Positions 3,301 through 25,218 of a stretch of DNA of 25,711 nucleotides are shown here, piece by piece; the first letter of the stretch is position 1; each line of letters starts with the position of its first letter. The DNA lies in NCBI RefSeq assembly GCF_000003605.2, contig NW_003151781.1, positions 8,408-34,118 of the forward strand. The letters are read 5' to 3'. Under the pieces are notes generated by a model. It was not told where the DNA came from and ran no database searches. It worked only from the letters and a program-made list of their open reading frames with translations. The stretch comes from Saccoglossus kowalevskii (Eukaryota; Hemichordata; Enteropneusta; Harrimaniidae). The translations under genes and the position numbers were made by a program.

Positions 3301-6174
3301 CTTTTCAAAAGTCAACCATAGAGCATACTTTTCCAAGAGAATTTTTGCCATCACAAACGTTCCTGCATGAGGAAAAAGCAAATAAGATGCAGCATATTTT
3401 TAGTGGATCAGTGGCTTATTTAAAATGAATTGATAGATGGTAGTGTGTTGAAACAGTTTGATTTGATGTCAGGTTAATATGTGTCATCTCACGATTCCTT
3501 TTACAGGTAGAGTTACCTCCAGCGGATCTTGGCGCGACTCAGTCCTTGAATCAATCTTTGGCATTATTAAGGGAAGTTCTTGCATCGCATGATTCATCAG
3601 TAGTACCGCTTGATGCCCGACAGGAAGACTTTGCCAAGGTATTCATGAAGCATTGTAGTTGTATTGTTCTGAATAAGAACAATAATAATAGCAAAACTTT
3701 CAATTTAGTTTCAAGTTTAGTTATGCTGATGTTGGCGAAAGATGTGAAAAAGAATAAATATAAAATTTAGTAAATATAAATTTACTAAAGATGTCATTAT
3801 GTCATGAAATCTCTGCAAATGATTTAGTCTTGAGTTGATATGTGGTATTGAATATTCATGATATGCATAATTTATGCAAATGAAGGTTGATTGCTTGTTG
3901 TGTCAGTTGATAATAACAATATTTGACTCCTCTTCGTATAGGTGTTGTCTTGTGTATTAGATCCACTGTTACAAATGTGTGCAGTGTCTGCCAGTAAACT
4001 GAATCCAGCTGATATGGGTGTTTATATGGTGAATTGTATTTATGCAATGCAGTCCACCTTGGCCCTATATGAATTCACTGATCAAAGACTGGAAATGCTA
4101 GCTGGACAGGTAAGTGCAGCTCAACGTAGAGTAGTGTATATTCTGGAAAGAGATCATTAAATAATGTACATGAATCCACAGCTGCCTGAAACATATACTG
4201 ACTGGAAACATATCCAAACCAAACCTTTTTGTACTGGAAATACATTTTTCCAATCTTTCTCGTAAAACTGTGTGCATTTTGTCAGTTTTTTTAGTCTGTG
4301 GTTTAGTTGGGTGTCTCAGAATCTTCTGTCACTAGGCAAATCAGTTTTGAATATTTATGTCACAGTAATTTGCACTCTTGGATTTGGTGTACCATTTAAC
4401 ACAATGTTGGACTAGTGAAATAACTGAAAATAGATGCAGTACTGTACCCATACATTCAATACTAATATACAATAAAACCTAACTTTCTCCAGTCACCACT
4501 CTATAGAAAACAGTTGCATCATTTTCTTTGTTGTTCAATTTACTCTGTAGTACATTGTATGTTTGTATAACTAGTGTAAGCAAAGAGCAACATTTGCACT
4601 AAGTTGGTTGTTAGATGCTGACCATTATTCATTCTATCAATAGATTGAAGCTCACCTTGATACTATAGTTAGTGAACAGGCTTCCTATGTTTTATCACGA
4701 ACTGGGTTATCACACATCTACAGTATTATACAACAACATCAGTTGAAAGAGGTAACATTGATTTTTATAAGGAGATATGTTTTAATTTATTCACTCAGTG
4801 AAAAAATGACGAGAAACTGCCGAATCAAACGCGTGTTCTAAGTGGGATTCAAACTCGTACATGTGACAATGAAGTCTCATACTATCGGCTGGGTCATTTG
4901 ACATTACTAAAAAAGGTGTTTGTGTCTAATTGGTTACAAATTAACAGACATAATTTGAATTCTATTTGTAGGGTCCTTTAGCGTCAATACATGGTATGGA
5001 TGCCACTACAGTCAGATCTGCCATGGTAAGTTAATTACCACTGCATTATTTTACATTACATCACAAGTACATTATTTATATCCAATAAAGTTGGAAATTT
5101 GCGTAATTATTGGACTCTGTGTCCTTATTTGCATAGCTATTTGATGCCGATACTAGAAATTATTGTATTCTAAAACTCCATAGCTTATAGTAGTACATCT
5201 ATAATTAAACATTTTTTTCTTTAACTTTCATTTTTCATTTAACAGAGCAAATTTGACTCGTATCTATCATCACCAGATAGTTTAACAATGCCACAGTTGA
5301 ATTTCCTACAGAGCACTTCATTAAGGTATGTGTTTTATTTTCGGTTGCCAGGCTACCATAATATTGATATCATATGTCAAAAGGGTTGCTATATTTGTGG
5401 CCACCATAAACACATGTATTTTGTTTATGGGGATGGTTGATGTAGGCATCTAAATTGCCTTTCAATGCTAGTTGAAGTTGTACAAATAACATACATTACT
5501 ACAATGAGATATTACAAGAATGCAACACAGTCAGTATTGTGTAACTGTGTAATGGAAGTCAAAGTATTTCCTGATTGCATACTTTGTAATTTTCTCATGA
5601 GCCCCATAGAAATAGAAATATAATTACTGTATGTGTTAGCATCTGCAAGCCTCCAAATAAAGGAGGCGTCCATCTTGTATTCAAATGCCTCTGCATGTAT
5701 ATTGCATAAACATGTGGTTTTCATACACGTTACTGATGCCATAAATGCATAAGGAAACAAGTACATTTACCTATTGTCAGTAGTGCTTGTCTTAGTTTAT
5801 ATAAAAACCTGTATGAACGCATTATATTGTTCTCACTATGAGGTGTATATCACATTCTACTGGGTATATATTATTTACTTCACAGTGCAACATAATTTGC
5901 ATATGACTGGCATATGTTTGAAACCATGATGCCAATTCACATTTCAGAAGGTCATGCCATTTTAAGGCACAATATAAAAGTATAATATTAAAATTTGTGT
6001 TATTTCACTACTTTTTTTTCAAACAGGAGAACTGTACATAAAAGGTCCACAGAGCTTGTATCAGCTGCTTATGACTTCCTGTATCAAGCCATCACCAATC
6101 CTAGCAACGGTTACAAAGAACCAAGATCCATTGTTATTAGAACTCCACAACAAGTGAAAACGTTACTATCATAA
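332..6174 (+). CDS. COG6: COG6, conserved oligomeric Golgi complex subunit 6 (13 exons, 5' partial)
   Basis: COG6 is a lobe B subunit of the COG complex, which tethers retrograde vesicles at the Golgi and so maintains glycosylation enzymes; it is a peripheral membrane protein on the cytosolic face. Exons, read from conserved peptide and GT-AG borders: 332-402, 898-991, 1113-1189, 1776-1919, 2125-2189, 2358-2449, 2907-3021, 3507-3638, 3942-4109, 4644-4751, 4972-5025, 5246-5325 and 6027-6174, ending in TAA at 6172-6174. The joined frame is open for 448 residues. Diagnostic stretches are [71 protein letters not shown] and a C-terminal PQQVKTLLS. The human protein has about 657 residues, so roughly 200 N-terminal residues are missing upstream; bases 1-331 look like intron. 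No stop or frameshift is visible, so the gene looks functional. The identification is near certain from recalled similarity to vertebrate COG6. Confidence 0.97.
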
Positions 6175-7894: not shown

Positions 7895-8058
7895 TTAAAG
7901 CGGGGTAGTCATCACCTGCGCATGTGTCAGATGGCCATAGCGTGTCATTGATTACAAACAAGCGTCTACCCCTGAGCCTTTGCGTTTTAGCGTGTGTTGT
8001 TATCGTCGCTTTTGACTCAATTACCGCGCGTGCGCAGGTGACGACCCTCCCGCTTTAA
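7895..8058. mobile_element. MITE with TTAA flanks, copy 1
   Basis: This is a 164-bp non-coding element bounded by TTAA at 7895-7898 and 8055-8058. Inside these are terminal inverted repeats beginning AGCGGGgtaGTCaTCACCTGCGCA on the left; the reverse complement of the right end begins AGCGGGaggGTCgTCACC. TTAA target duplications are typical of piggyBac-type transposition, so it may be mobilised by such a transposase in trans. The interior matches 15401-15524 in the opposite orientation, and a short derivative lies at 9249-9303. The family assignment is inferred from the ends only. Confidence 0.75.
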
Positions 8059-8572
8059 GGGCTTGCTTTATATAAAGTGCGCTTGATTCCATGTCATGTG
8101 TTCATTATATTTTGTTACATCCGTATCATCCAAACCACAAGGTACTGATGTTAGAGTGGAGCTGAATATACATTTGTCAATTCAGTGCAATATGTGCGAC
8201 TCCCATATGTACATGAGAAATATCGAGGCGTAGACGAGGTGATATAAATTTTATTTATTTGTTAAAGTTGTATAAGACATAATTTAAACTATACGAGTAC
8301 ATATTCTTCCACACAATAATTGACATTAATTATCAGCATTTTGTTCAGTTGATTTAGTAAGTGTGTATTGGCAGCTTGTCACCAACAATTTCCAGAAACG
8401 CATTTGTTAGGATAACTTTAACACGCTGGTATTTTCTCTATTAAAATAAAAATTCATAAACCGAGGTAGCTAAATTGTTTAATCATTTGGATATCTTGGA
8501 CACAAAATTAAAATTGTAAAGTAAAGTTGATACAAGATTTATCATTAATTATGCGCAGTCAGCATTCTTTAT
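8059..8572. other. Downstream region of cGLR copy A
   Basis: This is AT-rich sequence 3' of the minus-strand cGLR gene. Apart from the poly(A) signal next to the stop codon I recognise nothing in it. Confidence 0.4.
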
Positions 8573-8573
8573 T
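8568..8573 (-). terminator. AATAAA poly(A) signal of cGLR copy A
   Basis: On the minus strand AATAAA overlaps the last base of the TAA stop codon (8575-8573). A signal this close to the stop implies a very short 3' UTR if it is used. The duplicate gene C has lost this hexamer at the same place, and none is visible down to about 20340. Confidence 0.5.
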
Positions 8574-10991
8574 TAGTTGCCGTCCTTCCATTCACCAATA
8601 AAACCACATGGATTCTCGTAAAACTCTTGAACTTTGTCCGCAATCAATAACAAGTTTTCGGGTTCTTTCAGTTTGCTGTTCTCTTTATTCCGAAAAAGAT
8701 TGATACTTGGAATGAAGTAATGCGGGCAATTCTGTCCACGGAGGCATTTCAACAGACTTCCAACCAATCCAACGAAACGTTGTCCAAGCATATCACGTGA
8801 CCAGTCATGGCTGTTTGGATATTTCTCACACTCCCACAAAAGCAAATTCTGAAACAGAAATGATATTCAAAGTATTAGTGTAGAATCAAATGGACTACAG
8901 GGAATTAAAAATATGTTCATCCACTGAAAGTACAAAATTAACTTATGTCAAAGTAGACCATCGACGAGATCACATGCAATCACACGCGAATATGCTAATA
9001 ATATTCAAGTTACCATTGCACTAGTATATACAGGCATGTTTAGTTAATTCACCTTTAAATGGTAGGATGACAGTGCTGGTGATTGCCAGTGGTCTTCACG
9101 AATTTTCTTCAGTAAACGTAAACACTGTTTACGACACCCTTCATCGCTGTCAATTCCGTCCAGCAAGGCTATTTCACATCGGCTGAATGACGTAAGCCTG
9201 TCGGAATACAGAAATATAGGCGTTTAACTAAAACAAGTGAGTATGCTGTTAAAACTACCCAACCTGCGCACGCGTGGGAATTGAGTAACGACACCCCGCT
9301 TCAAACTACCTAAAAGATGTAATTCTTATGTCTATTTCCCTACGTAGTTATATGTCATAAAAATGTAGAGCTAAACTCACCAATACAAATTGTCTTTGGC
9401 TACAGAGTCTGTGCCAATCTTCCGTACTTCTTCAACTTTGTGCTTTGGCGGCCAGACAGGCGAACGAGGCCAGCTATTGAGAACATTTGGCGGAAGACCA
9501 CGCCCATTGGCAGGAACTAATGGCACGAGATCTACAGATATCCTCTCTTCGCCGGATGACACCATCAATGTTATGGCTGGACCATGAGTTTTTTTCAACA
9601 CTCGGACTGACTCTGTTAATAGAAAATACACACCGACTTTACACATACTGTTAAGAAAAATTAATGTGTTATCTTGAAACGAGTGTAAAGCTAGAATTAA
9701 ATTAAAATAAAATTACGTTAATCAATGTGACATTATAGGATGGCAAATATCCCCGTTTATTACACGTACAAATCAAACCGAATATCGATATCGTAGTTCA
9801 GTGACCATGCAGTTTATACAATATATGTTACCAATATTTTGATTGTCAGCCGATGACGTTACATTTTCTAACCCCTTGCAAGAATCCAATCCCTGCCAGG
9901 GATTGTGTTCCATATATAGGAATGTGTTAAATGACGTCCATGACACATGGCTTGAATAGTGACGAATGGATGTCTCATCGAATAATAACAGAATTGCGAA
10001 AACTATATTTATTTATTTAAAGTATCGCACGTGTTACAGCACACTCAACATTATTAAGTTAGAGGTTGTGATAATTAAAATATGCAGACAGTAAGTCTAA
10101 TTTTGTTGTGACATTCCCGCTTCCCCGTGAAAAAACTATATAACAACACAGTGAAATCGTACGCACAGTAATTGAAACCACCTTCGATCTCGCCCCCTCC
10201 CCGTGAACTTAAATATTACGTTTGATGTGTGCATGCTTCATTTATCTGAGGACCCCCTAAGCGGCAGCAATCAGAATGCTTACACAGCGCATTTACTTTA
10301 GGCTGACATCAGTATAAAGATCACTCTGAGACGTTGTGATATTATAACCAACGCAAGTACAAATTTCTTCCATATAATTTTGTCTCGAATGAAATAATTA
10401 TTTGTTTTCACTCACACAATCTCCAGCTTATCCCTAGTTTTAAAACGATTGAAGCTATTATACAACATATATATTTTGTATCAGTACGTTACCTCGCAGT
10501 TTGCACTCTCTGACGGCGTTTTTAACAAGGACTTTGAATATAGTCTTCACCTTGAACGGCACGACGTAATCGCCCATTTTCATATTATTTTCCGGTTTCC
10601 AAATATCGGAAACTGTGTCTATTGTCACATTATGGTATCCATTGGGCGGATTTGGAAGTGGAACCTTCGTTTCAACCAACTGACCGTCTACGTCTATGGT
10701 GTAGTAGGCTGGCTTGTCAGCAGTTTTCCAAATCAAATTCGGCAAACCTTCCATAGGGACATTGAAGTCAAACTCGTTCGGTTCAGTGACTTTCAATCCC
10801 GAGGCGTAACTTCCCGAGTTCCACGTCTGATGACTGAATCGTGGATCTTTGTCGTGAACATATTTCAGAATAGGGTCGACCACACTGTGTACGGCATTCA
10901 CGGCAGCTTTCACCTTTTCCCGGCGCATTTTTATCTGCGTGTCTGTGTAATAATTTAGGTCACCGACCAAACCATTTTGCGTCGCCAACAT
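8573..10991 (-). CDS. cGAS-like receptor (cGLR), Mab-21 family nucleotidyltransferase, copy A (intact)
   Basis: The four minus-strand exons are 10991-10493, 9612-9381, 9197-9053 and 8848-8573, with intron phases 1, 2 and 0; together they encode 383 residues. Relatives use ATP/GTP to make cyclic dinucleotides after sensing foreign nucleic acid in the cytosol and signal through STING. The visible motifs are a helical N-terminus (about residues 15-45), G60-S61 followed by NEFDF with catalytic E73 and D75, a third acidic residue D194 in ISVDLVPLV, and the Mab-21 C-terminal signature CPHYFIPSINLF. The cGAS zinc-thumb insertion is missing: the corresponding segment is GCRKQCLRLLKK without the extra His/Cys cluster. 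There is no signal peptide or membrane segment. The ATG at 10991 is preceded by a TATA box and conserved in copy C. The alternative is a non-catalytic MAB21L-type protein, but the complete triad argues for a cGLR. The activating ligand and the product are unknown. Confidence 0.9.
9249..9303. mobile_element. Miniature derivative of the TTAA MITE, copy 3
   Basis: Within intron 2 of cGLR copy A, a segment of about 55 bp starts TTAAAAC, continues ACCTGCGCACGCG and gGGAATTGAGT, and ends cgacACCCCGCTT. It looks like the left end of the MITE at 15401 fused to the right end of the MITE at 7895, with the middle deleted. The ends are diverged, so the borders are approximate. Confidence 0.5.
9938..9972 (-). 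repeat. 35-bp segment shared with the loop of the hairpin at 12983-13048
   Basis: The reverse complement of 9938-9972 is identical over 35 bases to 12999-13033. It lies in intron 1 of cGLR copy A. The corresponding intron of copy C lacks it, although flanking bases such as gacgttacatt are conserved there. It is therefore a later insertion in A or a deletion in C. Confidence 0.8.
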
Positions 10992-11059
10992 GTCGATAAT
11001 CGTTTTGTACGTATTGAGGACGTTGCGTGAAGCCTGGTAGTTGGTTTAATATTGACCCC

Positions 11060-11109
11060 TTTATATAATGGGGACGATTATATTGTACAAATAAATACTG
11101 GAAATCCCC
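11060..11109 (-). promoter_or_regulatory. Proximal promoter of cGLR copy A: TATA box and kappaB-type site
   Basis: Read in gene direction, TATATAAA lies at 11067-11060, about 70 bp before the start codon. GGGGATTTCC lies at 11109-11100, about 33 bp further upstream. The second matches the NF-kappaB/Rel consensus GGGRNNYYCC. The same 10-mer occurs upstream of copies B and C. An inverted CCAAT (AGCCAATGAAA on the plus strand near 11137) is also shared with the copy C upstream region. Confidence 0.6.
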
Positions 11110-11547
11110 CATCTAGCATGATTAATGCGGCTCAACAGCCAATGAAATATCAATATTGACAATTACATCAGCACGACTGGAAAATACCTGACGCATACAT
11201 TCAGAGAATCAGTAAGCATGGGAGACGTCACCGTTATCTGCATTTGAATAATTACGGTTTACAACCCACAATAACAATTTGACCTATATAAGGGTTGGAA
11301 TGGGGTGTCAAAGGGGTATTTCCTCGCAACCTCGTGTGAACTAAATGGGCGTACGCGATGTCATTGATAACACCACTCTTAGATTTCAAAGATGACATTC
11401 GTCGTTCATTTGTTCGGGCTCAGTGAGCCAATGATTTTTGCTCTCAATACGATTCACTGCTGTGCAGTTTGTTAATTTATATTGCCGACCTCCCCACTAA
11501 TAAGATCACACATGTGTTTATACGCCAGTCACGTGTCCGTCACAGTA

Positions 11548-11602
11548 ATGCGCACACTCATCATATTTACGCGTATTTATCACACGGGTTTTCCCCATGA
11601 CG
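11548..11602 (+). repeat. Intergenic module, copy 1
   Basis: The pattern GCACACTCATCATATTT, then gTATTTATCAC, then CGGGTTTTCCCCAT recurs in diverged form at 23858-23913 and 24654-24700. All three copies lie between divergent cGLR genes. Confidence 0.5.
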
Positions 11603-11740
11603 TGATTTTATACAAGATGGAATTTGACACGCAAAGCTGTTCATATCCAGTGGCCAGGGATTGAACATTAGAAAATCGGGGAGGGGGAAATGACAGAATT
11701 GAAAAACAAATACCGGTATATGAACCGTACATATAGTTAT

Positions 11741-12006
11741 CAGTGGCGGCGGCACAATGGGGGCGGGGGGTGCGCAAAAAATGTTGGGGAGCGCCCCCTA
11801 AAATAAAGCTGAAACCCTTTGTGTCAGCAAAATTTGCCCATCGAAATGCAGGAAATAGCGTTTCAGAGGGTTCAGACTTCAACATTTTTAAGGGGGAGCA
11901 TGCCCCCGGACCCATAGGAAGGTCGCACCTTCGGCGCGAAGGAGGGTGAGCGGATCTCGCCCCCCTCCCAATGCAACATTTCGTGCCGCTGCCTCTGGGG
12001 CCCCTG
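11741..12006. mobile_element. hAT-like MITE relic
   Basis: The left end is CAGTGGCGGCGGCACaaTG. The reverse complement of the right end contains CAGAGGCAGCGGCACgaaATG. The interior is GC-rich and has the GGGGGAGCATGCCCCCGGAC stretch seen in many invertebrate hAT-type MITEs. The right border is either 11997 or 12006, and no clean 8-bp duplication is visible. The open frames inside it are not genes. Confidence 0.6.
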
Positions 12007-12544
12007 GTTATGTTTCGATCGGACGAACTAATGGACACTCGCCTGTTTGTATTATGACACTACTTCCTCGACACACAGTACAGTGCAGTAGTAATTCGAA
12101 TAGACGAGACGAAGGCTACATTGACCGTGGCGTGCAGGGATGATATTTTGTTTTTAAAAATCAGTGCTCAATTGAAGGGGAAATTGATTCCAAATACAGT
12201 CATTACTTAGCGACAACTTAGCAGTGATGTTAATCAGAAAGATTATGAAAGAGAAATTGCCAAACATGTGACAACAATGCATATTTTGTTTTTTACTTCA
12301 GTGTAATTCGGCGTGTTACTTTTTTTTTTTTAGATTTTCTTGGACATCAAAGCTAATTTGAAATTGATGTGCATTTACAAGAATATATTCTGAGAACACA
12401 TTACATTGGTACACCTAATTGGAAAAGTTTGCGTCAGTGAAAAGAAAGTTGTATTATATAGCTTTGTTTATACAAGGTAAAGAATTAGATAGGTATAGTT
12501 GATAACTGTGACATTAGAAGCACATCCAGCAATAAATTAATTGT
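12007..12544. other. Intergenic stretch between A and the relic copy E
   Basis: This is AT-rich sequence with a T10 tract near 12321-12332. No coding or repeat family is recognised. Confidence 0.4.
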
Positions 12545-12920
12545 TCTGCTTCTGGTAATTCAGAAAATATGGATCCTCGTAAAGTATAAACATAATTCAT
12601 AAACGTTTGTTTTCATGATGGTAAATTGACGAAACACTGTTTCGACACCAGTTTCTTGTAAAGCTATATTACAACGCCCGCATGGCGTAAGCCTATTGGG
12701 ATACAATAGTATAACAGTTTTATAACAAAACTGGTTATTCGTTTGATTTGATTTTTATTTAGTCACGTCTATGAATGATTGAATATGTTATTATTATTAT
12801 TTCTATTTCCGCATGCTATCATCAATAGGCACATTCACACAGCTAGATGTTCGAGCGAAACCAATACATTATATCTTTGACAAATATTCCAATCTCCCGT
12901 ACTTTGACGTTTAGAGCCAA
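12545..12920 (-). pseudogene. Decayed cGLR relic, copy E
   Basis: Three short blocks in minus-strand gene order match copy A. Around 12572-12585, ATGGATcCTCGTAAA matches the exon 4 end. Around 12640-12697, AAACACTGTTTcCGACACC and then cGTAAGCCT match exon 3 and its acceptor. Around 12862-12915, ACCAATACA, TCTTTG and CCAATCTcCCGTACTT match the 3' half of exon 2 and its donor. Spacing is strongly compressed, frames are lost, and no exon 1 is seen. This is the oldest cGLR copy recognised here. The match was made by eye, so block borders are approximate. Confidence 0.6.
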
Positions 12921-12982
12921 ACCAAAGATTGAAGCCTCTTAATCAAAAAATAGGGCGGGCTACCACAACCACTGATATGTAG

Positions 12983-13048
12983 CACCGTCCCTCAACACCA
13001 TCCATTCGTCACTATTCAAGCCATGTGTCATGGTGTTGAGGGACGGTG
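12983..13048 (+). repeat. Perfect 19-bp inverted repeat (hairpin) upstream of cGLR copy B
   Basis: The arm CACCGTCCCTCAACACCAT (12983-13001) pairs perfectly with 13030-13048 across a 28-nt loop. The loop is part of the 35-bp segment shared with copy A intron 1. It could be the remnant of a small foldback element or a structured RNA; nothing here decides which. Confidence 0.8.
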
Positions 13049-13242
13049 TATGTAGTAATTGGAATACAGTTGAATATAGTTTGATACGGCGAGTCTTTCA
13101 ATTGACCAAACTATATGGGTCACCGCTTGTGTGAGTCTTAAATTGATTACTGATTTTCTGAATCCATGAGAACGATTTAACCTAACTGAGCACATTGATA
13201 TAGCTGGTGTATTTTGTACTGGCAATAGTTCAGCGTTCATTC

Positions 13243-13267
13243 TATTTATAGAAAATGGGGATTTCCC
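13243..13267 (+). promoter_or_regulatory. TATA-like box and kappaB-type site of cGLR copy B
   Basis: TATTTATA at 13243-13250 is followed by GGGGATTTCCC at 13257-13267, a full NF-kappaB consensus. The coding start at 13297 is 30 bp further on. An upstream in-frame ATG at 13255 overlaps this motif and would add 14 residues. The ATG at 13297 (atcATGGCGG) is preferred because copy D has the same ATGGCGG start. Confidence 0.55.
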
Positions 13268-13798
13268 TACATCCGGGTCTGACATACGTTATCATCATGG
13301 CGGCAGATCTGAATTTTGACACAACAGATTTCAAACAGTATAAGGAAACATGTGTAGTGATTCCAAGACACGACATGAAGACAGCAGCCGACAGGGTGCG
13401 GAATGTCTTAGATACTATATGTCCCTACGTTAATGATCGAAATCCCCTTTTTAGTCGTAAACCGGTGGCCATTGGCAGTTATGCTTCTAAATTGAAGGTT
13501 GGTGAGCCTAACGAATTCGATTATGACGTGGTATTAGTGGGACTATCGGACAATTTATCATGTAGTGCCTCGGAGTTTAGTAGATTTTACTGCATAACGA
13601 AAGATGGCGGCACTAAACGGCTTCAAAGAACGTATGATAGGCAACCCGACCCACCGATGGGATATTATATATTGGCTTTAGAAGAACCAGCCTTGTCTGA
13701 TATGCATGACCTGACCGCAGACACACATCTAGTGCCGCTACTAGTAAAACAAACTTTCAGAGAATTGGTGACAGATGCCATTGAAATATTCTTTCCGG

Positions 13799-15400
13799 GT
13801 ATGTATTCCTGTTTTCAGCGAGTTCGTGTACTAAATAGATTCAATAATCTGGACAAATATCAAGGCCCTTTTTCAAATTAACATATTTTCAACACACACA
13901 TACTTCATTATTCAATGAATTTTCTGTATTAGCTTAAGGCAGTTGATAAAATGCAAACCACCAATTGTAAACTAACTGGAAACTAACTATATGTTATACT
14001 TTTTGAAATATTTTCACAATATCAGGATTCATCTGCATAAATAATATACGATTTCTCATTCTTAATTGTCACCGAGACAAATGTTGAGATATGATATGAA
14101 ATATTACCGTCTCATAGAAAATAGTGTGAAATGCAAATCTCAAACAATTTATAGGAGCCCCCCCCCATTTTTTGTATCCTGTTGTCATGAACGAATAATA
14201 ATGAAGGGTTCCTCATATCATCAATCTGGTTGTTGGATTATCGAATTACCGCTCATTCAATTCAGAGAAACCAGTTTTCAATTGAGTTGATCAACACCAG
14301 CATCTTCTTTGGTGGCATCTCATGATCAATATACTATGTTGTCAATTTCTGTACTTTTCGTCTTACGGGGAATCGCAGCGTTTGGATATTTTAGTTTGAT
14401 ATCATGTGTGCGATTCCCTTCATCATTTGTCTTAACAACTATCTAATTTGCATATACATTCTTCTTATACATACTACGCGTGCGTTCCATAGTTGAGACG
14501 AGATCTTACACGTCATTAATCAATTTCATTCTTGCCTTCATGTTAACCTTACAGTCTATTTTAACCTGTCTCATTTTATTCAGTTTTCCAAATTACCTTG
14601 TGATTCTGCTCATTGTTGCTGAAGATCTGACTAAGATATGTTAACTTAGATACATTCTCAATGATATTTTTGTCGATTGTCAACGGTGATGGTACGGAAT
14701 CGTTCTTAACTTTACTTGTTCTCCACATCTATATTTCACTAATACTCTTACTTTTATTCTAAGAATAGAGACTATCGATCTTTGGTACATTTTGTACTAT
14801 ATATACTTATCAATAGAGAGGTACTTGTTATCATATCCAGCACTTTAATCTCTTGATTAAAGATAATATGCTGCAATCAAATCTACTTAAACTGCGATTA
14901 GAGTTTTGTTGTATTTGCGAATCACTGTTTTCAACACCCATGATAATATTGCGTCAGTAGTTGTTCTATTTCACCGGAAACCATACTGCGACTTATGTAT
15001 ATTTGGTTCGTATGCATCCTTCAGATTTTCGCCAGTATACGACTTATATTAGCGCCCATTGTGAACACTCAGTAGTTTTTAGGCTGATTAAAAACTCATT
15101 TCTTATGCAGGCATGTTATAATTGCCAACATGTCGGTACGCTTGGGTGGTCACAGATTAGATTACAACATATCAGCCGTACTTGTAATTGTTTTATTTCA
15201 AAGGAACAAGGCATGATCTTTAATTCGGTTCGAACATCGATAATAAGTTGTTTTAATTTCATAAACACAAAACTACAACCAAAATGTATAGACCATACAT
15301 TACGGCTTTCATAAAGTGTTTTTAATTGTACCTAGTATTGAAGGCATGACATTGATATTGGAATTGAACAAATATCAATCTAAAATTAATATATAAACCT
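13799..15400 (+). other. cGLR copy B intron 1 (left part)
   Basis: A long AT-rich intron segment follows the GTATGT donor. I see no gene or recognisable element before the MITE at 15401; the open frames within it show no family similarity. Confidence 0.5.
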
Positions 15401-15524
15401 TTAAAGCGGGAGCGTCGTCACCTGCGCACGCGCGGGAATTGAGTCCCAAGTGACGATAACAACACGCCCTAAAAACGCAAGGACTCATGGGTAGACGCTT
15501 GTCCGTAAACAATCCATCGCTTTA
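15401..15524. mobile_element. MITE with TTAA start, copy 2 (internally deleted)
   Basis: TTAAAGCGGGagcGTCgTCACCTG opens the element. Its interior follows the reverse complement of 7895-8058 closely, including gTAGACGCTTGT, and then stops early at cGCTTTA. It sits in intron 1 of copy B, about 115 bp before exon 2. Confidence 0.65.
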
Positions 15525-15867
15525 GGGTATATGGATGTGCTATAAATATAATGTATTCTATCGTATCTTTGTGTTGCATGTCGTACGTACTCAATTTGTC
15601 TTGAATAACAAATGACGTATCCCTTTACTTTACTATAGAAATAAAGATTAAACAAAAAGATAATGGTCCTGCTATTACAATTATTATACCTGACCCAGAT
15701 GGGAAAATATATGTCGATTTAGTTACAGTAATACCCAACATTGGAACTGAAATATTGTCTGATGCATGGGACATTTGGCCTAGAACCAATCGTTGGCCTC
15801 CAGCAGATAAAGTAAAAAAAGTGAAACAAGTTGGAATTTGTTTCGTTCCTAAGCACGACATACACTG

Positions 15868-16616
15868 GTGAGATATATAATTTTTTCATTCATTACGGCT
15901 GCTTTTTAGTGATAGTTATTTCAGACTGCGTTTTTGGCGAAGCGAGTGTGGCGTGGTATTGGAAGTGCTGCCTACAGTGGCGATGCGATTGCCTCTGTTT
16001 CATGTTGTAATATTGGCGATCAACACCACTAGGATCCGCTAAAAAAACAGAAAATAGTTTCATATTTCACAATGCTAATGAAATATTTCGAAAATAAAAA
16101 GAAGGCAGAAAAAAGACAAGCCAGTAGGCTGATTGGCGTTCCGTTTTTGCTGTTATAGTTATTATATTCACGCAAGATCTCCCTCAAACTTGGATTTCGA
16201 TAAGATTACCTACTTTTTATTTCTGACCGTTTTGCGATTGTATTTTCAGATTCTTTGGTTGAATGCAGCATTTACAGTTCATTCAAAGTTCAAAGTTGCG
16301 TTGGGATTACGTTGATACAGTGTAACTTCACTGATTTGTTGCTATAGTTTGTGAGCTTAAAGACTTAATAATATGCGATAACAAACCATACCATGTTTCC
16401 CAACGCTTCACCATTAACATCAATCAATAGCTTTTATACAAAGGATACTATTTTTCGCACACTTAAAATGCAGATATCTGTGCATGAGTTAAATATTAAC
16501 TCGATGATGTAATAACATCGCGTTACAAAATATAAATATTAACATATCAAGGATATAATGCCCAAATTAGGATATTATAATTACACTTCAATCTTACACC
16601 CCAATCATCTCTATAG
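15868..16616 (+). other. cGLR copy B intron 2
   Basis: This is a phase 2 intron between the GTGAG donor and a CTATAG acceptor. Nothing else is recognised in it. Confidence 0.6.
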
Positions 16617-16773
16617 GTATGCGTCATTCAGTCGATGTGAAATGGAATTGATCAAATAGATTGACAAAGATGGCGGCTGTCGAAAAGAGTGCCTACGCAT
16701 ATTAAAACAACTACGTGAAGACTATTGGAAGTTTCCTCCAAATAACCCAGCTCTTACGTCATTCCACTTGAAG

Positions 16774-17322
16774 GTAGTGTATCATTATTTGCAATTCATT
16801 ACATATGCTTTATCAAGTAATCGCTTTACTGGTTTAATTGTAACACAAATATTTTATTTATATACGTTTAGACTTCACTTGTGCCATAAGATTATGTTTC
16901 GCTATAGTCTGACCGCCCCTCGATTTTTTGCACAGCAGTTCACATTCGTTCAATAGTTTTTTATGCGTATTTCCATCTTACCGTGCGACCAAACATATAT
17001 AGCTTGACCGTTCGATTCAAAGGTACAACATTCAATTACATAATTGAATCGAGATGCATTCTGGGAATGTTGTTTTTTTATTTTAATCTGCATACGACTA
17101 TGGAACATGTAGCAATGTAAAACATGTTTAACATGTAGAACAACATGACCTTTTATTATGATACGTAAATTTAAAGCTAGTACGTCAAATGCCATCCAAT
17201 GTGTATTCACGTGGTGGCTTACGCGTCATTTTCTCAGGTATACGTGGATGTATAAATATTAAAAAAAAAACAATATGTTCTTTCCATGAAGTTTCACTAC
17301 AATTTCATTTTTTTCTGAGCAG
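16774..17322 (+). other. cGLR copy B intron 3
   Basis: This is a phase 0 intron ending in a T-rich tract and CTGAGCAG. No other feature is recognised. Confidence 0.6.
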
Positions 17323-17652
17323 ACATTGTGGTTGTGGGAATGTGAAAAGTGTCCGTATTTGTTTCAATGGGACCGTGATTTCCTTCCTGGCTGTGTCATG
17401 AGTATTGTAACAAGGCTGAAGTACTGCCTCGACAAAGGAAAATGCCCACATTATTTCAATGATAAAATTAATCTCTTCGAGGATATATTGGGAAGACGGC
17501 TGAAAAATCCCAATGGTTTGATGGAGACAGCATTCGAAGTTGGTAAATTTTTGAAACACCCAAGATTATTATTGGAAAAAGCCACACGCTCACGATGGTC
17601 TTATCCCAGCTCACGTCCCCTGTCGGGAGGTGAACTATCCATTGCTTGGTGA

Positions 17653-18379
17653 ATTCTGCTTCGCAATGATAAGAAGAGTCGACATTGAAGGATCAAAAAA
17701 CGACGTCGCTGTTGTGATAGAGGGGGTGGATCTCTCTCTCTCTCTTAAACCACGATATTACTTAAATTAAATGTTCTCACAGCTTCCAATAACTAAAATA
17801 ATACAGAAAAGAAAGTTGTAATACATGTTAAGCAACAAGTTTTATTATATTTAAGATGTATTCCTACTTAATGGTGTCCTTTTTAAAGAAATGGAATATA
17901 AAGATTTCTAAAAAATTCCAAAACCCATTTCAGTACTAGCTGCTGTTTAAATACAAAATTCTAGTTGGCGGTTATTACCCTAGATTATTAAACGTACTGT
18001 GATCGTGGTTTATGTATGTACAATATTGTATGGCTTATGATTGATTATTTAATAGCAATGTTCGCCGCCCTACACATCGGAAAAATCCACCATTTACGAT
18101 TTCTTAAACATGTGTTCATTTCCAGTTCACATGCTGAGTACGAGATTTTTGCATTGATTTGTATGGTATTAAACGTTTTGCCACCTGCAATAATGCCTGA
18201 TGAACGCTTTTCGTTGGGTTATTTTCAAAAGTAGGTGCCGAACCCGACTGCCAATACAGCAAAATTTGAAATAGTTGATCATGCCAGTTGGCCTTTTTAA
18301 AGATATTAGTAAGCCATTGCACACCTTAATGCTAGTGAACTATAAGATAACAAAATGTCTTAAAGACTGTGAACCCTTT
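17653..18379. other. Intergenic stretch after cGLR copy B
   Basis: AT-rich sequence with a short (TC)n run at 17731-17745. I see no gene; open frames near 18016-18322 lack any recognisable feature. Confidence 0.4.
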
Positions 18380-18731
18380 CGGCAACCGAGGTTGCTCACA
18401 ACATGGTATTTTATAAAACCATTTTTACAATTCATTTTTATGTTATAATCCTTTTTATTACAAATTTTCGTTTCTGAAATCGATTTTCAAAACTCTCGTT
18501 TCTGAGATGTTTTTATTCTAAAAAACAATTGTTTATATCCGTTTTCATTTTAACAACAATTGATTTACACAATTGGTTTTCAGAATGAAAACAGATCTCA
18601 GAAAAATCAATTTCAGAATCGAAAAATGTTATTAAAAAAGATTATAAAATAAAAAATGAATTGTAAACAATGTAAATGAATTGTAAAAATGGTTTTATAG
18701 AATGCCATGTTGTGAGCCACCTCGGCTGCCG
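18380..18731. repeat. 350-bp foldback palindrome (probable MITE)
   Basis: The left arm begins cGGCAaCCGAGGTtGCTCACAACATGG at 18380. The reverse complement of the right arm begins cGGCAgCCGAGGTgGCTCACAACATGG at 18731. Similarity continues inward through ATAAAACCATTTTTACAATTC almost to a centre near 18555, so nearly the whole segment is self-complementary. No clear target duplication was found. It is non-coding. Confidence 0.8.
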
Positions 18732-19409
18732 TAGCGCACACATTTGTATGGTTTTCCTTAGGTAATGTGAACAATGAGTGAGCCGTGGTTACATGTAGTT
18801 ATTTTTGCATCTACGCTACATTATTATACACAGCGAATACAGAGTCATCACATATAATATTAACAACTTGAGTGTCTAAAACTTACCCTAATGAATTATA
18901 GCATATTAACCCACCGAACACTGTTATTATGTAAAAATTATATCACGGCAAATTATGTCGCCCTTTTATCTTAATGCCATTATAATTTATGTATAACTCT
19001 TATTCTGCTATAACCTCTTTGAATCACGTGCCCAGTCGTTGTTTTTAAAAGTATTGAGAAGTTTACTTGTATACCAAATCCCACATTTTGGAACAATTAT
19101 TGCCAAATCTACAAAACCACGATAACTAAATGCAGCAATCACAAATTACGTTGCTATATATTTACGTTTACGTTTTCGATAAAATCCACATACAGAGTAG
19201 AGACTGCTGATATAATGTTTCGCATATGGAGAAAAAAAGGTAATACTAAAACATTGCCTTAACCTAACTATTAAATATATTTAACCAGGATAATTCATTC
19301 ATTTCCCCCTCACTATGATTTCTAATGGAGTCCTGCATGAAATATACATGAAATATATACATTAACAAATTAAATTAAAAAGATTAAAATTAATAAAATA
19401 ATTACATAC
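18732..19409. other. Intergenic stretch between palindrome and LINE relic
   Basis: AT-rich sequence; no gene, RNA or repeat family recognised. Confidence 0.4.
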
Positions 19410-20000
19410 AATAAAATACAAACATACTACTTTTTAAAATATTTTCTTACAGCAGTTTTAAAATTACAAATATCACCTAGTAATTGTATTTCAATAGGCA
19501 AACTATTCCATAATGAGATGCCTCTATAAAAAAATGTATTTTTTTCTTTTTCTAATCGGGCAAACGTAACATCAAATTATTATCAGCCACAGCTCTAGTA
19601 AAGCGAATGAGTTGTTTACGAATATATGATTCGTGGGAATTTTGATGACAAATACAATGGTACAATATTATGCATGCATTTAAACATCATTATAGCTGAC
19701 TGCATTTCCCATTGTTGGTTAATGGGGTGCCAGTTTAGTATCGACAGTGTTTCAGATGTCGATGTAAACTTTCCCCTACCAAGGACTAACTTGGCAGCTC
19801 TGTTATGTAAACGTTGGATTTGAGTTTGCATCTTACTACCACAGGTCATCCATACTACATCACAGTATGTGATGAGGGGAAATACTAGTGCCTTATCCAT
19901 TAACTCGTATGATTTTTTTATCAAGAAATTTACGAATTCTGCAAATGGCTCCAAGTCGTCTTGAAACAGGAATAGATTGTTTACTTATTGTATTTACTAG
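19410..20000 (-). mobile_element. LINE (non-LTR retrotransposon) 3' end, degenerate
   Basis: Minus-strand fragments in successive frames carry the typical C-terminus of LINE reverse transcriptases. SRRLGAICRIRKFL lies near 19960-19920, LITYCDVVW then IQRLHNRAAKLVLG then LNWHP then MFKCMHNIVPLYLSSKF between about 19890 and 19630, and FFYRGISLWNSLPIEIQ then FKTAVRKYFKK near 19540-19425. The frame changes at least twice and the endonuclease and catalytic domains are absent, so this is a dead, 5'-truncated copy. The clade (CR1/L2/Jockey-like) cannot be fixed from this part. Confidence 0.85.
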
Positions 20001-20109
20001 TGGCGATTTTGCAAGGCTTTAACCGTGAGACATATCCCACGTGATCATGCCAACGACTGCAGTGATTGGCTGGTCGCATGTTTACTCTGCCACGCCATAG
20101 AGATTTATC

Positions 20110-20254
20110 ATGATAGAGTTTGTAAGATTTTGTAACCAGAAGAAGGAAGTGGGCAGCGAGGGGTTACCTCAGCTGACCGTTTGGGTGAATAAAGCTGGAC
20201 TATCTGTACTGAACAATTGTGTATTCCTTTGGGTCGAATCGGATATCTCTACAG
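20110..20254 (+). CDS. Possible unassigned coding exon
   Basis: An ATG with A at -3 opens a frame of 48 codons ending exactly at CTACAG followed by the consensus donor GTAAGT at 20255. Codon use is less AT-rich than the flanks, and the peptide (LTVWVNKAGLSVLNNCVFLW) looks protein-like. I do not recognise the family. No matching downstream exon or acceptor was found before copy C begins antisense. It may be a first exon with distant partners, a fragment of a retrogene or transposon gene, or chance. Confidence 0.3.
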
Positions 20255-20503
20255 GTAAGTGTTATCAACTGAGCGAGTCACAGTTCCTGAACACGACGCT
20301 AGTGTTCACAACACGTATAACATACATTTTTTTTTTTGCAAAAAACGATTAAAGTTGTTTTTGTTGCTACGACTGCACTGTGCAGTAAATTTCGTAGTGT
20401 AACTTCCATATTTCCCAGTGCAGGGATTATTTTGTTATTTATAATAATGTTATATATTTAAAATCCAACTGCTTCTGCCGCCAGCACTGTTTGACGATTT
20501 GAA
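20255..20503. other. Downstream region of cGLR copy C
   Basis: AT-rich sequence. The AATAAA that adjoins the stop of copy A is absent here on the minus strand (CTAATTCAAATCG instead), and I find no AATAAA or ATTAAA in the minus strand of this interval. Confidence 0.5.
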
Positions 20504-23325
20504 TTAGTTGCCGTCTTTCCATTGACCAATAAAATAACATGGTCTCCCGTAAAACTCTTGAACTTTGTCCGCAATCAATAACAAGTTTTCGGGTTCTTTC
20601 AGTTTGCTGTTCTCTTTATTCCGAAAAAGATTGATACTTGGAATGAAGTAATGCGGGCAATTCTGTTCACGGAGGCATTTCAACAGACTTCCAACCAATC
20701 CAAGGAAACGTTGTCCTAGCATCCCACGTGACCAGTCGTGGCTGTTTGGATATTTCTCACACTCCCAAAAAAACAAATTTCAACAAAATTCTGAAACAAA
20801 TGTTATTTGATATAGTTATTGTAACAAAACACATCGACACTGAAAGCAAGTGAAAACGATTACTAACACCAATGACCAATTGTTGAGTAATTGCAGGTGT
20901 CTATGGCGACCACCAACACATTGTTCGTTTGATTGACAGGGGGCGCGTGCCACATATTTTTTGATTCACTACGCGGTGTGCAAAATAGACCGTAGTATGA
21001 GTTAATTCACCAATTTTGTTACCAGTTCGTTACAGCATAAAAGTATTTGAACCTTAGAATTAGGAATGAATATCAAGTACCTAGTTAACTAATGTTAAAG
21101 TGGACATCGACGAGGTCACAGTCATGCACATGTATCTTGACATTCAAGTTTCCAACCTACTAGTACATGCATGTTAATTTACCTTCAAATGGTAGGATGA
21201 TAGTGCTGGTGATTGCCAGTGGTCTTCACGAATTTTCTTCAGTAAACGTAAACACTGTTTACGACACCCCTCATCGCTGTCAATGCCTTCAAGCAGAGCT
21301 ATTTCACATTGCATGAATGATGTAAGCCTGATGGAATACAGAAATATAGTCTTATCACAAGTGGTGGGTAAGGTATTAAAAAGTAAATAAATTTGAGGTT
21401 TTTAACTAAAAGGTTAATTTTTTCATGTCGATTTTCTTACATGTTGTATTAACGCATCAGAACAGAATACACATTACAAATCTGAGAAAAACATAACAGA
21501 ATAGTCACATTGTCATAAATATGTAGAGCTAAACTCACCAATACAAATTGTCTTTGGCAACAGAGCCTGCCCCAATCTTCCTAACTTCTTCAACTTTGTG
21601 CTTTGGCGGCCAGAGCCGCGAACGAGGCCAGTTATTGAGAACTTTCGGTGGGAGCCCACACCCATTGGCAGGAACTAATGGCACAAGATCTACCGATATC
21701 CTCTCCTCGCCGAATGGCACCATCAATGTTATGGCTGGACCATGCGTTCTGTTCAACACTCGGACTGACCCTAGTAATAAAAATACACACCTGTTAACAA
21801 TAAATATATTGAAAGTCGAAAGGATGTAAGGCGAGAAACAAATTATACACAAGTTGCAGAGTGGTGAATATGATATCCCTGTTTCTTCCATGTATTGTAG
21901 GTGTATTTCGAACCTTTTTATATATCGAAATCGTGATTGTATGATTATGCATTCTCTACAACATATGTTACCCACAGCTTGATTGGCAGCCGAGGACGTT
22001 ACATTATCCAACCTATAATCCGATCTCTACCTGGCATTTTATTACACTATATTACACTATATGAATATACTACCCATAATAACGATTGGAGGCCCCGTGT
22101 AATATGGTCGAATATATCAGTAGAATCACGTATTGTTCGTTTTACAGTACACTCAGCAATATGAAGTTAGAGGTTATGATAATTAAAATATACGCACTGC
22201 AAACGTGACCTCAGCGCTAAACATGCCCTCCCCCCTAAAAAAGCGAGTCCAGTACGAAACAAATGTGAAAACTACATACACAACACAGTGTGTTTTTCGG
22301 CACAGTAATATAAATCACTTTCGACCCCCCCCCCCTAAAGGAAGAGGTTCATGATTCACTGTTCATTGCCGTGCCCATGTCCCAAATATCTACGGCCCCT
22401 TAATTGGCAGCAATAACTTAGCGTACAATTCGTCGACCACGTTAACTGAAAATAGCTAAATATACTGATATCCCTTGTCTATTAATTTTTCTTCATGTTA
22501 TTCAAACAACTGATATAGCTCCGGTGATGTATGTAAATTGTCGCCTTACAAAATTACGTTAAAAAATAATATATTAACCCAGACTAAAATATTACCAATA
22601 CATTCGATGTAACCTTATCTGAGGGATTGATTGATTGATTGATTGTTATATTGGATTTAAAATGTTCATACTTATTTTAAATTATCATCGTTCAAGTTTA
22701 ACTTGTAATTATCTCAATCTAGATGATATTGTAACCATTGTGACATTATTATTGTCCTCGCACAATCTCCCGTCCACCCCCTAATTTTCAAATGGGATAT
22801 CCCTTACACAACTGAACTGTGATGGCACTCGTTACCTCGCAGTTTGCACTCTCTGATGGCGTTTGTGACCAGCCCTTTGAATATAGTCTTCGCCTTAAAC
22901 GGTACGAGGAAATCCGCCATCTTCATATCATTATACTCTTTGCAAATATTTGATAATCTCACATTATGGTATCCATTGGGTGGAGTTGGAAGCGGAACCG
23001 TGGTTTCAACCAACTGACCGCGTACGTCTATGGTGTAGTAGGCTGGCTTGTCAGGAGTTGTCCAAATAAAATTCGGTAAACCTTCCATTGGAACAATGAA
23101 GTCAAACTCGTTCGGTTCAGTGACTTTCAACCCCGAGGCGTAGCTTCCCGAGTTCCACGTTTGATGACTGAATCGTGGATCTTCGTCGTGAACATATTTC
23201 AAAATAGGGTCGACCACACTGTGTACGGCATTCACGGCAGCTTTCACCTTTTCCCGGCGCATTTTTATCTGCGTGTCTGTGTAATAATTTAGGTCACCGA
23301 CCAAACCATTTTGTGTCGCCGACAT
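20504..23325 (-). CDS. cGAS-like receptor copy C, duplicate of A with a damaged exon 4 acceptor
   Basis: Exons on the minus strand are 23325-22836, 21770-21539, 21327-21183 and a final exon ending at 20504, with the same phases (1, 2, 0) as copy A. Exons 1-3 are open and most residues equal copy A, including G60-S61, E73, D75 and the third acid (D191, because exon 1 is three codons shorter). In exon 4 an 11-bp insertion lies directly after the ancestral acceptor (exon start 20790). Using that acceptor shifts the frame and reaches a stop within about 25 codons. A second AG at 20763-20762 (TTTTTTTGGGAG) would restore the frame from 20761, dropping only the six residues NLLLWE and giving 374 residues. 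The TATA sequence and poly(A) signal are also weaker than in A. It is either a young pseudogene or a gene using a shifted acceptor; exon 4 downstream is fully open. Confidence 0.75.
22626..22645. repeat. Short (TTGA)n microsatellite
   Basis: About five units of TTGA in intron 1 of copy C. Confidence 0.8.
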
Positions 23326-23380
23326 GTCGAAAATCGTCTGATATTAGTTGTCGTTGGAACGTTGGTTTAATACTGGGTAC

Positions 23381-23469
23381 TTCATATAATGAAGATTGTT
23401 ATCTGACGCACTTTCCAATGATTGTGCAACAATTTCATAATGGAAATTCCCCATTTAATGGAAATCCCC
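23381..23469 (-). promoter_or_regulatory. Promoter region of cGLR copy C: degraded TATA and two kappaB-type sites
   Basis: In gene direction GGGGATTTCC lies at 23469-23460 and GGGGAATTTCC at 23452-23442; both fit the Rel/NF-kappaB consensus. The TATA position that reads TATATAAA in copy A reads TATATGAA here (23388-23381). The order site, TATA, ATG is the same as in A. Confidence 0.5.
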
Positions 23470-24260
23470 TATTTCACATATTTCACGCGGTTCAACAACC
23501 AATGAAATCAATGGACACATACTTATGCGCGGCAGGAATTTACCTGACGCAAATATTCTCAGAACCATTGACCTTGAGAAACGTTATAGGTCACGACCCG
23601 TAACTATTTGTACTATGGGGATGAGTGTGTCATTCGGTAACTCCGGGGTATTTTCTCCATTTCTAAAAATCAAAGACTTCGACCAAGGCTGAGACGCAAT
23701 GCTTATATTTTTAAATAGAACTAGTAGTGCAAACTGAGTTTTCAATCAAGTTTATTTCTGATTTTCGCCTGTACGGTTTGTCTTCTACAGATTCTGAATC
23801 ATGATACCTACCTCCTGGTATTTACACAGTTACGCCAGCCATGAGTCCATTTGTATTTCGCACTCATATCATACTGTATTTATAGAATATTTGTCACGTG
23901 GGTTTTACCCATTATATATTTTTCCCTTCATCGAGTGTTTTTTTTTTTTTTTTTTTGCGATGTTCTCACCATAGCTACAGACAGCATTCATGACATTTAC
24001 AGGCAGCAAAAGCACTTGCCAGGGATTTAGTTCCGGGAGGAGGCATTATCATAGCTAAAGTATACGGATAAGGGCCGTTGTTTTGACCCCAATTTTATTT
24101 GACAAATACGTCAGTGTTACTGGAATATTCGATGTGGAGATTCTGAGTGACTGTGAGTGGTGGTATAGGTTACGAAGGACCAGGGTTATCTCTTACTGAG
24201 TACGTTGCTTGGCGCGGTGATTCTGATAATCAGTGACGGCGTGTATGTATGTATACATTT
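23470..24260. other. Intergenic stretch between cGLR copies C and D
   Basis: The left part resembles the region upstream of copy A (GGGGTATTTtCTC, AAAGActTCG). It contains a long T tract at about 23938-23956 and module copy 2. No gene is seen. Confidence 0.45.
23858..23913 (+). repeat. Intergenic module, copy 2
   Basis: CGCACTCATATCATA, then AATATTTGTCACGTGGG, then TTTTACCCAT. This is related to 11548-11602 and shares the exact AATAGAA/ATAGAATATTTGTCACGTGGG core with 24654-24700. Confidence 0.6.
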
Positions 24261-24429
24261 CAGTGGCGGATCCAGGGGGCAGGGGGGCCATGCCCCCCAC
24301 AAAAAAAACCGCACGACGATTCGTATCTTCTGCATTACGCATAGCTTCTCTGCCATTTACGGTCCGTATATCTTAAGCGTAGCTTGGACCCCCCCCTCCC
24401 CCCAATACATTTTGCTGGATCCGCCACTG
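24261..24429. mobile_element. hAT-type MITE with perfect 8-bp target duplication
   Basis: The terminal inverted repeat CAGTGGCGGATCCAG at 24261 is matched by CTGGATCCGCCACTG ending at 24429. The flanks are identical 8-mers ATACATTT (24253-24260 and 24430-24437). The 169-bp interior has C and G runs and no gene. Eight-base duplications and CAGTGG ends are typical of non-autonomous hAT elements. Confidence 0.9.
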
Positions 24430-24743
24430 ATACATTTAAGGGCTACGTTAAATATTTGAACTAAGGGGTGGGCCAGTAGAAAGGCTATTGGGACGGTTGA
24501 ACCGACAAAAAAACTATTTTATTTTCTCTTGGATACTTTTTTCCGAAAAGATTTCTCGTTCTGGTCTACGCCCGTGTAATTATTCTTGACCGAGTTTACA
24601 AAGTTCGTAAACAACACGCCCGTGCTTTCAGACATGCGTCATGGATCTTTCAGTGTATTGCACACATTCATCATATGTATTAATAGAATATTTGTCACGT
24701 GGGGTAGTAGCCACCGCCTGTTTAGTCTTGCGACATATTCATC
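24430..24743. other. Upstream region of cGLR copy D
   Basis: It contains module copy 3 at 24654-24700, including the E-box CACGTG, 40-90 bp before the D start codon. No kappaB-type site like those of A, B and C was seen here. Confidence 0.4.
24654..24700 (+). repeat. Intergenic module, copy 3
   Basis: GCACACATTCATCATATG followed by ATAGAATATTTGTCACGTGGGG. It lies in the presumed promoter of copy D and is nearly identical in its core to 23858-23913. Confidence 0.6.
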
Positions 24744-25218
24744 ATGGCGGTAGGTTTGAATTCTCGTCGCTTCATAGATGTGACAATTCTCAATAGGTAT
24801 ATGGAGGAGCAGGTGGTAATCCCAAGAAACGAGACATAGATAACATATTGGGGTACGTTCACGATCGAGATCCACGATTCAGTCACCAGCCATGGACATC
24901 CGGAAGTTACGCTGCTAGGTCGAAGGTTAGCGAATCCAACGAGTTTGATTATGACGTGCCATTGGTGGGAATACCGAATCTAATATGGAAACAATGCATC
25001 CCAAGATATTATTCCGTAATTACAGATTCGAAAGGCAACAAACAGATTATAAGAACATCCAATCCACAGCCCGGTCCACCAGCGGGATATCATCAAATTT
25101 CTTTTAATGACCAATGATATGCGTGACATGACTGTCGGCACACACCTGGTTCCACTATTAGTCAAGCAAACTTTCAAGAAACTAGTGGCCGAGGCTATTT
25201 CGCATTTTAACTGGCAAG
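24744..25218 (+). pseudogene. cGAS-like receptor copy D, exon 1, frameshifted
   Basis: This exon is homologous to exon 1 of copy B: ATGGCGG start, then VVIPR, then YVHDRDPRFSHQ, then GSY and NEFDYDVPLVGIPNLIW, then GTHLVPLLVKQTF, ending at the phase-matched donor CAAG/GTGCGT (25219). The frame breaks twice. After PRNE a TAG appears at 24837-24839, where about nine codons present in B are missing and the frame moves by +2. A second shift around 25100-25117 gives a TGA before MRDMTVGTHL. The GS and E/D catalytic residues are still recognisable. Exons 2-4 would lie beyond the window. Two lesions plus a multi-codon deletion make a pseudogene more likely than sequencing error. Confidence 0.8.

Follow-up and report, generated by a model that had tools for sequence, protein, structure and literature searches.

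Four genes of the cGAS-like (Mab21) family stand in the order A(-) B(+) C(-) D(+) at positions 8573-25218 of a 25,711-nucleotide stretch of the genome of the hemichordate Saccoglossus kowalevskii (contig NW_003151781.1, positions 8408-34118; hereafter the window, in whose coordinates positions are given), and this alternating layout raises the question of whether a head-to-head pair of genes was duplicated as one unit. An earlier note on this DNA, drawn up from the letters alone, had claimed such a duplication. We give a probability of about 70% to a different reading, in which the locus arose by birth-and-death turnover of cGAS-like genes (nucleotidyltransferases of the Mab21 family), with copies of unequal age, and not by the one-step doubling of a pair. 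Two old clades would be present, clade I with A and C, and clade II with B, D and an unlinked relative, gene E. A more recent copying of a clade I gene together with ~0.6 kb of its 5' flank would have given rise to A and C, and B and D would be much older relatives of each other. A is the single plainly intact copy of the four in this assembly, and the three others, B, C and D, look disabled, decay being the best explanation of their state.

Computation covered the gene models and their broken frames, the relative ages of the copies, protein domains and catalytic residues, and motif enrichment; the coordinates of the features are collected in Table 1. The searched assembly comprises 572 Mb in 4830 contigs. 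Genome-wide protein searches were counted exon by exon, and scores were obtained for the best candidates only. Protein A found 31 places (E up to 10) and protein B found 30 (E up to 1); among the best candidates scored, close relatives occurred on the locus contig (C4195 in this analysis) and on the contig of E (C1734) only, with at most 43% identity elsewhere.

Relative ages of the copies

The gene order given in the earlier note was borne out by gene models and by tblastn. The first three exons measure 499/232/145 bases in A, 502/229/157 in B and 490/232/145 in C, lengths that yield the claimed intron phases of 1, 2 and 0 in each gene, and D shares the first donor phase as had been stated, its donor falling after 475 bases (phase 1). 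The shared phases uphold the proposed descent from one four-exon gene, and the head-to-head layout holds too. Gene order and intron phase should not, in themselves, be taken as proof of a pair duplication.

A one-step duplication of a pair requires A-C and B-D to be of equal age. Exon 1 was compared over the 132 columns common to A-E (131 codons for pairs with D). Synonymous divergence (dS) was 0.24 for A-C, 0.63 for D-E, 1.21 for D-B and 1.22 for E-B; between clades it reached 2.10 (E-C) and 2.95 (E-A), and the other four pairs were saturated. Silent divergence of A-C and B-D thus differs about fivefold in the same exon, by which a simple pair duplication is rejected and the claim that the pair was copied as a unit fails; an old head-to-head pair somewhere in the history of these genes stays compatible with the sequences. 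That A is close to C was confirmed (84% amino-acid identity and the dS given above, over the 132 exon-1 columns), and over all exons their dS was 0.193 with a nonsynonymous divergence (dN) of 0.062 (379 codons, with 11 extra bases of C left out). The resemblance of B to D, also claimed earlier, stands in the sense that both are members of one old clade, but D is nearer to the unlinked E (58% exon-1 identity) than to B (52%), and by base identity this was the case in 1971 of 2000 column resamples of exon 1.

The flanking sequences rank in the same way. Pieces of A and C remain alignable in all three introns and in the promoter, with 182 of 231 aligned bases identical in intron 1 and 154 of 207 in the promoter. 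The 5' homology of A and C (~0.6 kb) reaches 11609 and 23922, respectively, ending short of B, and their 3' flanks are unrelated (identity 0.410 vs a shuffled floor of 0.436). Upstream pieces of D and E are identical at 210 of 263 bases, and their first introns (the first 493 bases of that of D) gave no alignable piece at E 1e-3. For B-D and B-E, no alignable piece was found at E 1e-3 upstream (1000 bases of B) or in the parts of intron 1 compared.

A block of ~73 bases is common to the promoters of A, C, D and E, with 49/68 to 59/68 positions identical between clades; when 2855 stretches were drawn at random from the window, none reached any of the five tested block scores. In the 1000 bases upstream of B, block scores were 20-33, far under those of the four other genes. 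In D and E the block adjoins the start codon, but in A and C it lies 0.5-0.6 kb upstream. Its orientation is as expected if clades I and II once stood head to head, which leaves room for an older arrangement of that kind. Remnants of a clade II exon 1 were sought beyond the block. Past the A block, the level of the real match was attained in 2 of 200 shuffles for E, 7 for B and 129 for D, which we take as not significant; past the C block, this happened in 66 to 198 of 200, likewise not significant. A dispersed-repeat origin of the block was considered. When 214 bases enclosing the D block were searched against the genome, only D and the copy on the side of C came back. The copy of E (54/73 positions identical to that of D) was missed by this search, which therefore speaks only against near-identical, high-copy repeats.

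It is conceivable, if improbable, that the clades derive from a head-to-head pair of cGAS-like receptor (cGLR) genes that shared a bidirectional promoter. The core of this promoter, 73 bases made up of CACGTGAC and an AT-rich run, would survive beside the starts of D and E; the copies 0.5-0.6 kb upstream of A and C would be orphans. Sites of NF-kappaB type would later have made each side separately inducible, and a truncated B, with a nucleotidyltransferase core lacking the C-terminal lobe, could interfere with A as a decoy or as a dominant-negative partner. The suggestion that divergent pairs could give two sensors from one control region fails in this assembly, since the partners B and D are broken and the upstream sequence of B is not alignable to that of D.

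Several observations pull away from a cluster of unequally aged copies. A relaxed search returned a 24-base match between B and D at the start codon (21/24, E 0.015). In approximately unbiased (AU) tests on exon 1, the grouping D+B was nominally best both on DNA (0.82, vs 0.23 for D+E and 0.21 for B+E) and on protein (0.64, vs 0.22 and 0.47), and none of these was rejected. The likelihood tests do reject a tree with D beside A. The tree test put forward in the earlier note does not decide the matter: A and C group together, apart from D, which sides with B and E, but D+B, D+E and B+E are indistinguishable. Moreover, exon 4 of A and C has a dS of 0.067 vs 0.19-0.30 in the other exons, so that local gene conversion may have made A-C seem younger, and whole-length alignments of the A-C introns give Kimura two-parameter distances of 0.47-0.63, above the divergence of the alignable pieces.

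These last values, which also exceed exon dS, would suit an ancient duplication of the pair in one block, followed by gene conversion of A-C but not B-D that made A and C look young while their partners decayed unconstrained. The low exon 4 dS, the non-significant preference for D+B and the placement of the 73-base block in A, C, D and E, which is what a head-to-head ancestor would leave, all fit such a history. We consider it unlikely. Conversion limited to exons was dropped as a general explanation for A-C, as the intron-1 pieces differ at 49 of 231 bases (0.212), much like fourfold sites (27/137, 0.197); alignable intron pieces are biased toward similarity, and conversion of exon 4 may still have occurred. 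The conversion would therefore have to span introns and the 0.6-kb promoter as well. B and D have no flank or intron piece in common that is alignable at E 1e-3. In addition, C has a block of its own 0.8 kb from that of D, so that D is probably not the original partner of C and does not stand in that partner's place. A cluster built by copying at different times remains the preferred reading.

Coding state and predicted role of the genes

The frame of A is open throughout, with one stop, at its end. Spliced A matches the Pfam families Mab-21 (E 3.9e-21, 76.5 bits) and Mab-21_C (E 3.9e-28, 98 bits), each above the cut-off, 24.1, and thus has a Mab21-type nucleotidyltransferase domain plus a C-terminal helical lobe. 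Its catalytic residues are GSY at 60 (the GS motif), EFD at 73-75 and a third Asp, Asp 194. The GS motif, EFD and the third Asp are kept in A, B, C and E, and exon 1 of D keeps the first two; the pattern G[SG][YHF] had no match in four other Mab21-family frames of the genome (C263, C939, C4225 and C3169).

A is probably a working cytosolic pattern receptor. It is probably also an NF-kappaB-inducible cGLR whose product, formed when nucleic acid is sensed, is a cyclic dinucleotide; the analogy is with the enzymes described in PMC9980059. We infer its activity, ligand, product, induction and role as a receptor as follows. Nucleic acid derived from a pathogen would switch on the nucleotidyltransferase site, the activated protein would make a cyclic dinucleotide, and NF-kappaB would raise transcription of the gene through the site just upstream of its TATA box. 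STING is the usual, though not a strictly necessary, partner of a cGLR. Its profile PF15009 had no match in the genome in an exon-by-exon search; 14 control genomes also gave none, and the controls were silent for PF03281 (Mab-21) too, although PF03281 is found in this genome.

B carries an in-frame TAG at 16657-16659 (codon 258, exon 3), where the aligned codon of E is GAA. With X in place of the stop, spliced B matches Mab-21 (E 8.9e-17) and Mab-21_C (E 3.5e-22). Exon 3 could not be skipped without loss of frame, since the phase-2 end of exon 2 does not fit the phase-0 start of exon 4. B is likely, from its sequence, to be a pseudogene or to encode a 257-residue product without the C-terminal lobe. 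In exons 1 and 3, dN between B and E is well under dS. In exon 2 (15639-15867), which carries the third catalytic Asp, the two are nearly equal (0.43 and 0.44), and this may reflect relaxed or diversifying selection alike.

The exon-1 frame of C matches Mab-21 (E 6.3e-8). In exon 4, however, 11 bases absent from A directly follow the usual TTTCAG acceptor and shift the frame, and C read from this acceptor meets its first stop at codon 314. An upstream acceptor could not rescue the exon, because the correct frame runs into a stop immediately upstream. A downstream acceptor, GGGAG/TGT (exon start 20761), keeps C open to its end at a cost of six residues.

Exon 1 of D lacks 31 and 8 bases relative to E and B, gaps that shift the frame, and a TAG stands straight after the first. 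The longest frame of D, 24797-25117, had no Pfam family match, and D was therefore placed by tblastn with A and B. Exon 4 of E was not found in the stretch fetched, beyond which 3001 bases read N.

The stops and indels of B, C and D are known from one assembly, without reads, which weakens the case for decay. All or most copies might then be functional, the stop of B, the insertion of C and the gaps of D being assembly errors or polymorphisms, or C making use of GGGAG/TGT, which sits behind a T-rich tract. B is otherwise open over 405 codons, with a B-E dN/dS of 0.42 over 270 codons, and NF-kappaB-type sites are retained in the promoters of A, B and C. We nevertheless regard functionality of these copies as quite unlikely. 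Two gaps and an immediate stop in D are hard to ascribe to sequencing errors, exon 2 of B is nearly as divergent at nonsynonymous as at synonymous sites, and the six-residue loss in C would remove positions that align with conserved ones in the cGAS-like receptor 1 structure 8gjy and in MAB21L1. Decay of B, C and D beside an intact A is the reading that we retain.

Table 1. Positions of the genes and promoter features (window coordinates, except for gene E).
Feature	Position	Strand	Description
Gene A	8573-10991	-	cGAS-like (Mab21-family) protein, 383 aa (amino acids) + stop; four exons, GT/AG borders
Gene A exons	10493-10991, 9381-9612, 9053-9197, 8573-8848	-	gene model
TATA box of A, TATATAAA	11060-11067	-	after the NF-kappaB-type site
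NF-kappaB-type site of A, GGGGATTTCC	11100-11109	-	109 bases upstream of the A ATG
73-base block, A	11520-11591	-	529-600 bases upstream of the A ATG, inside the A-C 5' homology
NF-kappaB-type site of B, GGGGATTTCC	13257-13266	+	31-40 bases upstream of the B ATG
Gene B	13297-17652	+	four-exon relative with in-frame TAG in exon 3; gene model
Gene B exons	13297-13798, 15639-15867, 16617-16773, 17323-17652	+	gene model
Gene C	20504-23325	-	close copy of A; exons 22836-23325, 21539-21770, 21183-21327, exon 4 ending 20504
NF-kappaB-type sites of C (two)	GGGGATTTCC 23460-23469, GGGAATTTCC 23442-23451	-	upstream of C; GGGGATTTCC 135 bases upstream of the ATG
73-base block, C	23830-23905	-	505-580 bases upstream of the C ATG
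5' flank of D	24071-24713	+	homologous to 5' flank of E (C1734), broken by MITE-like (miniature inverted-repeat transposable element-like) insertion
73-base block, D	24634-24706	-	38-110 bases upstream of the D ATG, pointing away from D
Gene D	24744-25218	+	exon 1 of clade II copy; five-way exon-1 alignment and translation
Gene E	contig C1734, ~647,800-651,870	-	unlinked clade II relative, exons 1-3 open

NF-kappaB-type sites and surroundings of the cluster

The sequence GGGGATTTCC, which we take to be a form of the NF-kappaB consensus, occurs exactly three times in the window, each time 31-144 bases upstream of the start codon of A, B or C, where shuffles expect 0.01 occurrences; it was absent from a background of 68,491 bases taken from other loci, some of them overlapping. 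The sites of A and C sit in the shared 5' flank, so that there are at most two independent cases, and the site of B overlaps an in-frame upstream ATG at 13255 and could thus lie in transcribed sequence. A looser pattern, GGGRNWTTCC, was found four times in the window (0.33 expected) and three times in the same background; it had no match in the upstream region of D, and none in the 7-kb stretch of E, where one looser match lies far upstream. The loosest pattern, GGGRNNYYCC, gave 11 matches in the window, with palindromes counted twice, vs 1.25 expected, some of them outside promoters. The sites in three promoters offer a concrete hint, from sequence, that sensors of this kind may be induced by infection.

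The locus contig has 66,894 bases. It reads N throughout the 8,407 bases preceding the window and again for 17,656 bases following it, and exons 2-4 of D, as well as any further copies in the latter run, are hence not visible. In the remaining 15,120 readable bases, tblastn with A and B gave chance-level matches alone (E at least 1.6). Upstream of the cluster, exons of COG6 (conserved oligomeric Golgi complex subunit 6) lie at 1709-3770 (+), with COG6_C Pfam matches at E 1.1e-19 and 2.7e-5 (the second under the curated cut-off), and provide a handy synteny anchor.

Several repeats and frames were recorded in passing. A MITE-like insertion at 24261-24429, upstream of D, has CAGTGGCGGATCC ends in inverted orientation and is absent from E. 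A perfect 35-base inverted copy joins 9938-9972, in intron 1 of A, and 12999-13033, upstream of B; the latter is part of a palindrome whose 19-base arms span 12983-13001 and 13030-13048, and the copy looks like the end of a mobile element. An element of 119 bases has inverted copies, 87% identical, at 7947-8064, downstream of the 3' end of A, and at 15395-15513, in intron 1 of B. A long hairpin at 18380-18731 has 58-base arms that are 93% complementary. The open frame at 19616-19984 (-) had no Pfam match and resembles the C terminus of a retroelement reverse transcriptase, and another open frame, at ~60.5 kb of the locus contig, ends in a stretch that we take to be aldo-keto-reductase-like.

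Comparison with known systems

A 12-row protein tree, from which D was left out and in which two rows were flagged as poorly filled (50% and 21%), had as its starred groups A+C (99/99), B+E (99/98) and A, C, B and E together (99/98); deeper placing, including that of 8gjy, was weak (75/89). With animal cGLRs, A shares the Mab21 nucleotidyltransferase and helical lobe, the GS motif, the E-h-D motif and the third acidic residue. The best solved relative of both A (E 9.1e-46) and B (with X in place of the stop, E 2.9e-28) is 8gjy, ahead of MAB21L1 and cGAS. One feature does not fit, in that PMC9980059 writes the spacing between the second and third acidic residue of cGLRs as X50-90, that is, 50-90 residues, vs 118 residues in A. 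The aligned part of 8gjy has 104, so the rule as written would also exclude a named cGLR, and we label A cGLR-like and not a proven cGLR. A further difference is that three of the four copies at this locus look broken, and cGLR activity here is a prediction by analogy.

Vertebrate cGAS has the same fold family and catalytic residues as A, and its best chain matches A at E 6.8e-22. Its cysteine-rich stretch CCESSGAKCC (5xzb), which we take to be the zinc thumb, has a counterpart in A for the last Cys alone, and A was not classed as a strict cGAS on this ground. MAB21L1, MB21D2 and MiD51 share the fold, and among solved structures MAB21L1 (5eog) ranks second for A (E 1.6e-36); the genome's own frame taken here to be MAB21L-like (C263) is without a match to G[SG][YHF], whereas A has the GS motif, EFD and the third Asp.

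Animal-specific duplications are recurrent in the superfamily according to PMC10732462, and large cGLR radiations in some species, with more than 200 genes in some bivalves, are reported in PMC9980059. Since expanded cGLR families have already been described, the cluster is one more case and ordinary gene-family turnover. A search of open papers, by titles and the starts of abstracts, found none on a head-to-head or decayed cGLR cluster, which is weak evidence of absence. What the locus shows is copies of unequal age and state of decay beside one intact gene. Birth-and-death clusters of immune genes have copies of unequal age, broken copies and a relative on another contig, and the cluster described here differs from them in nothing essential.

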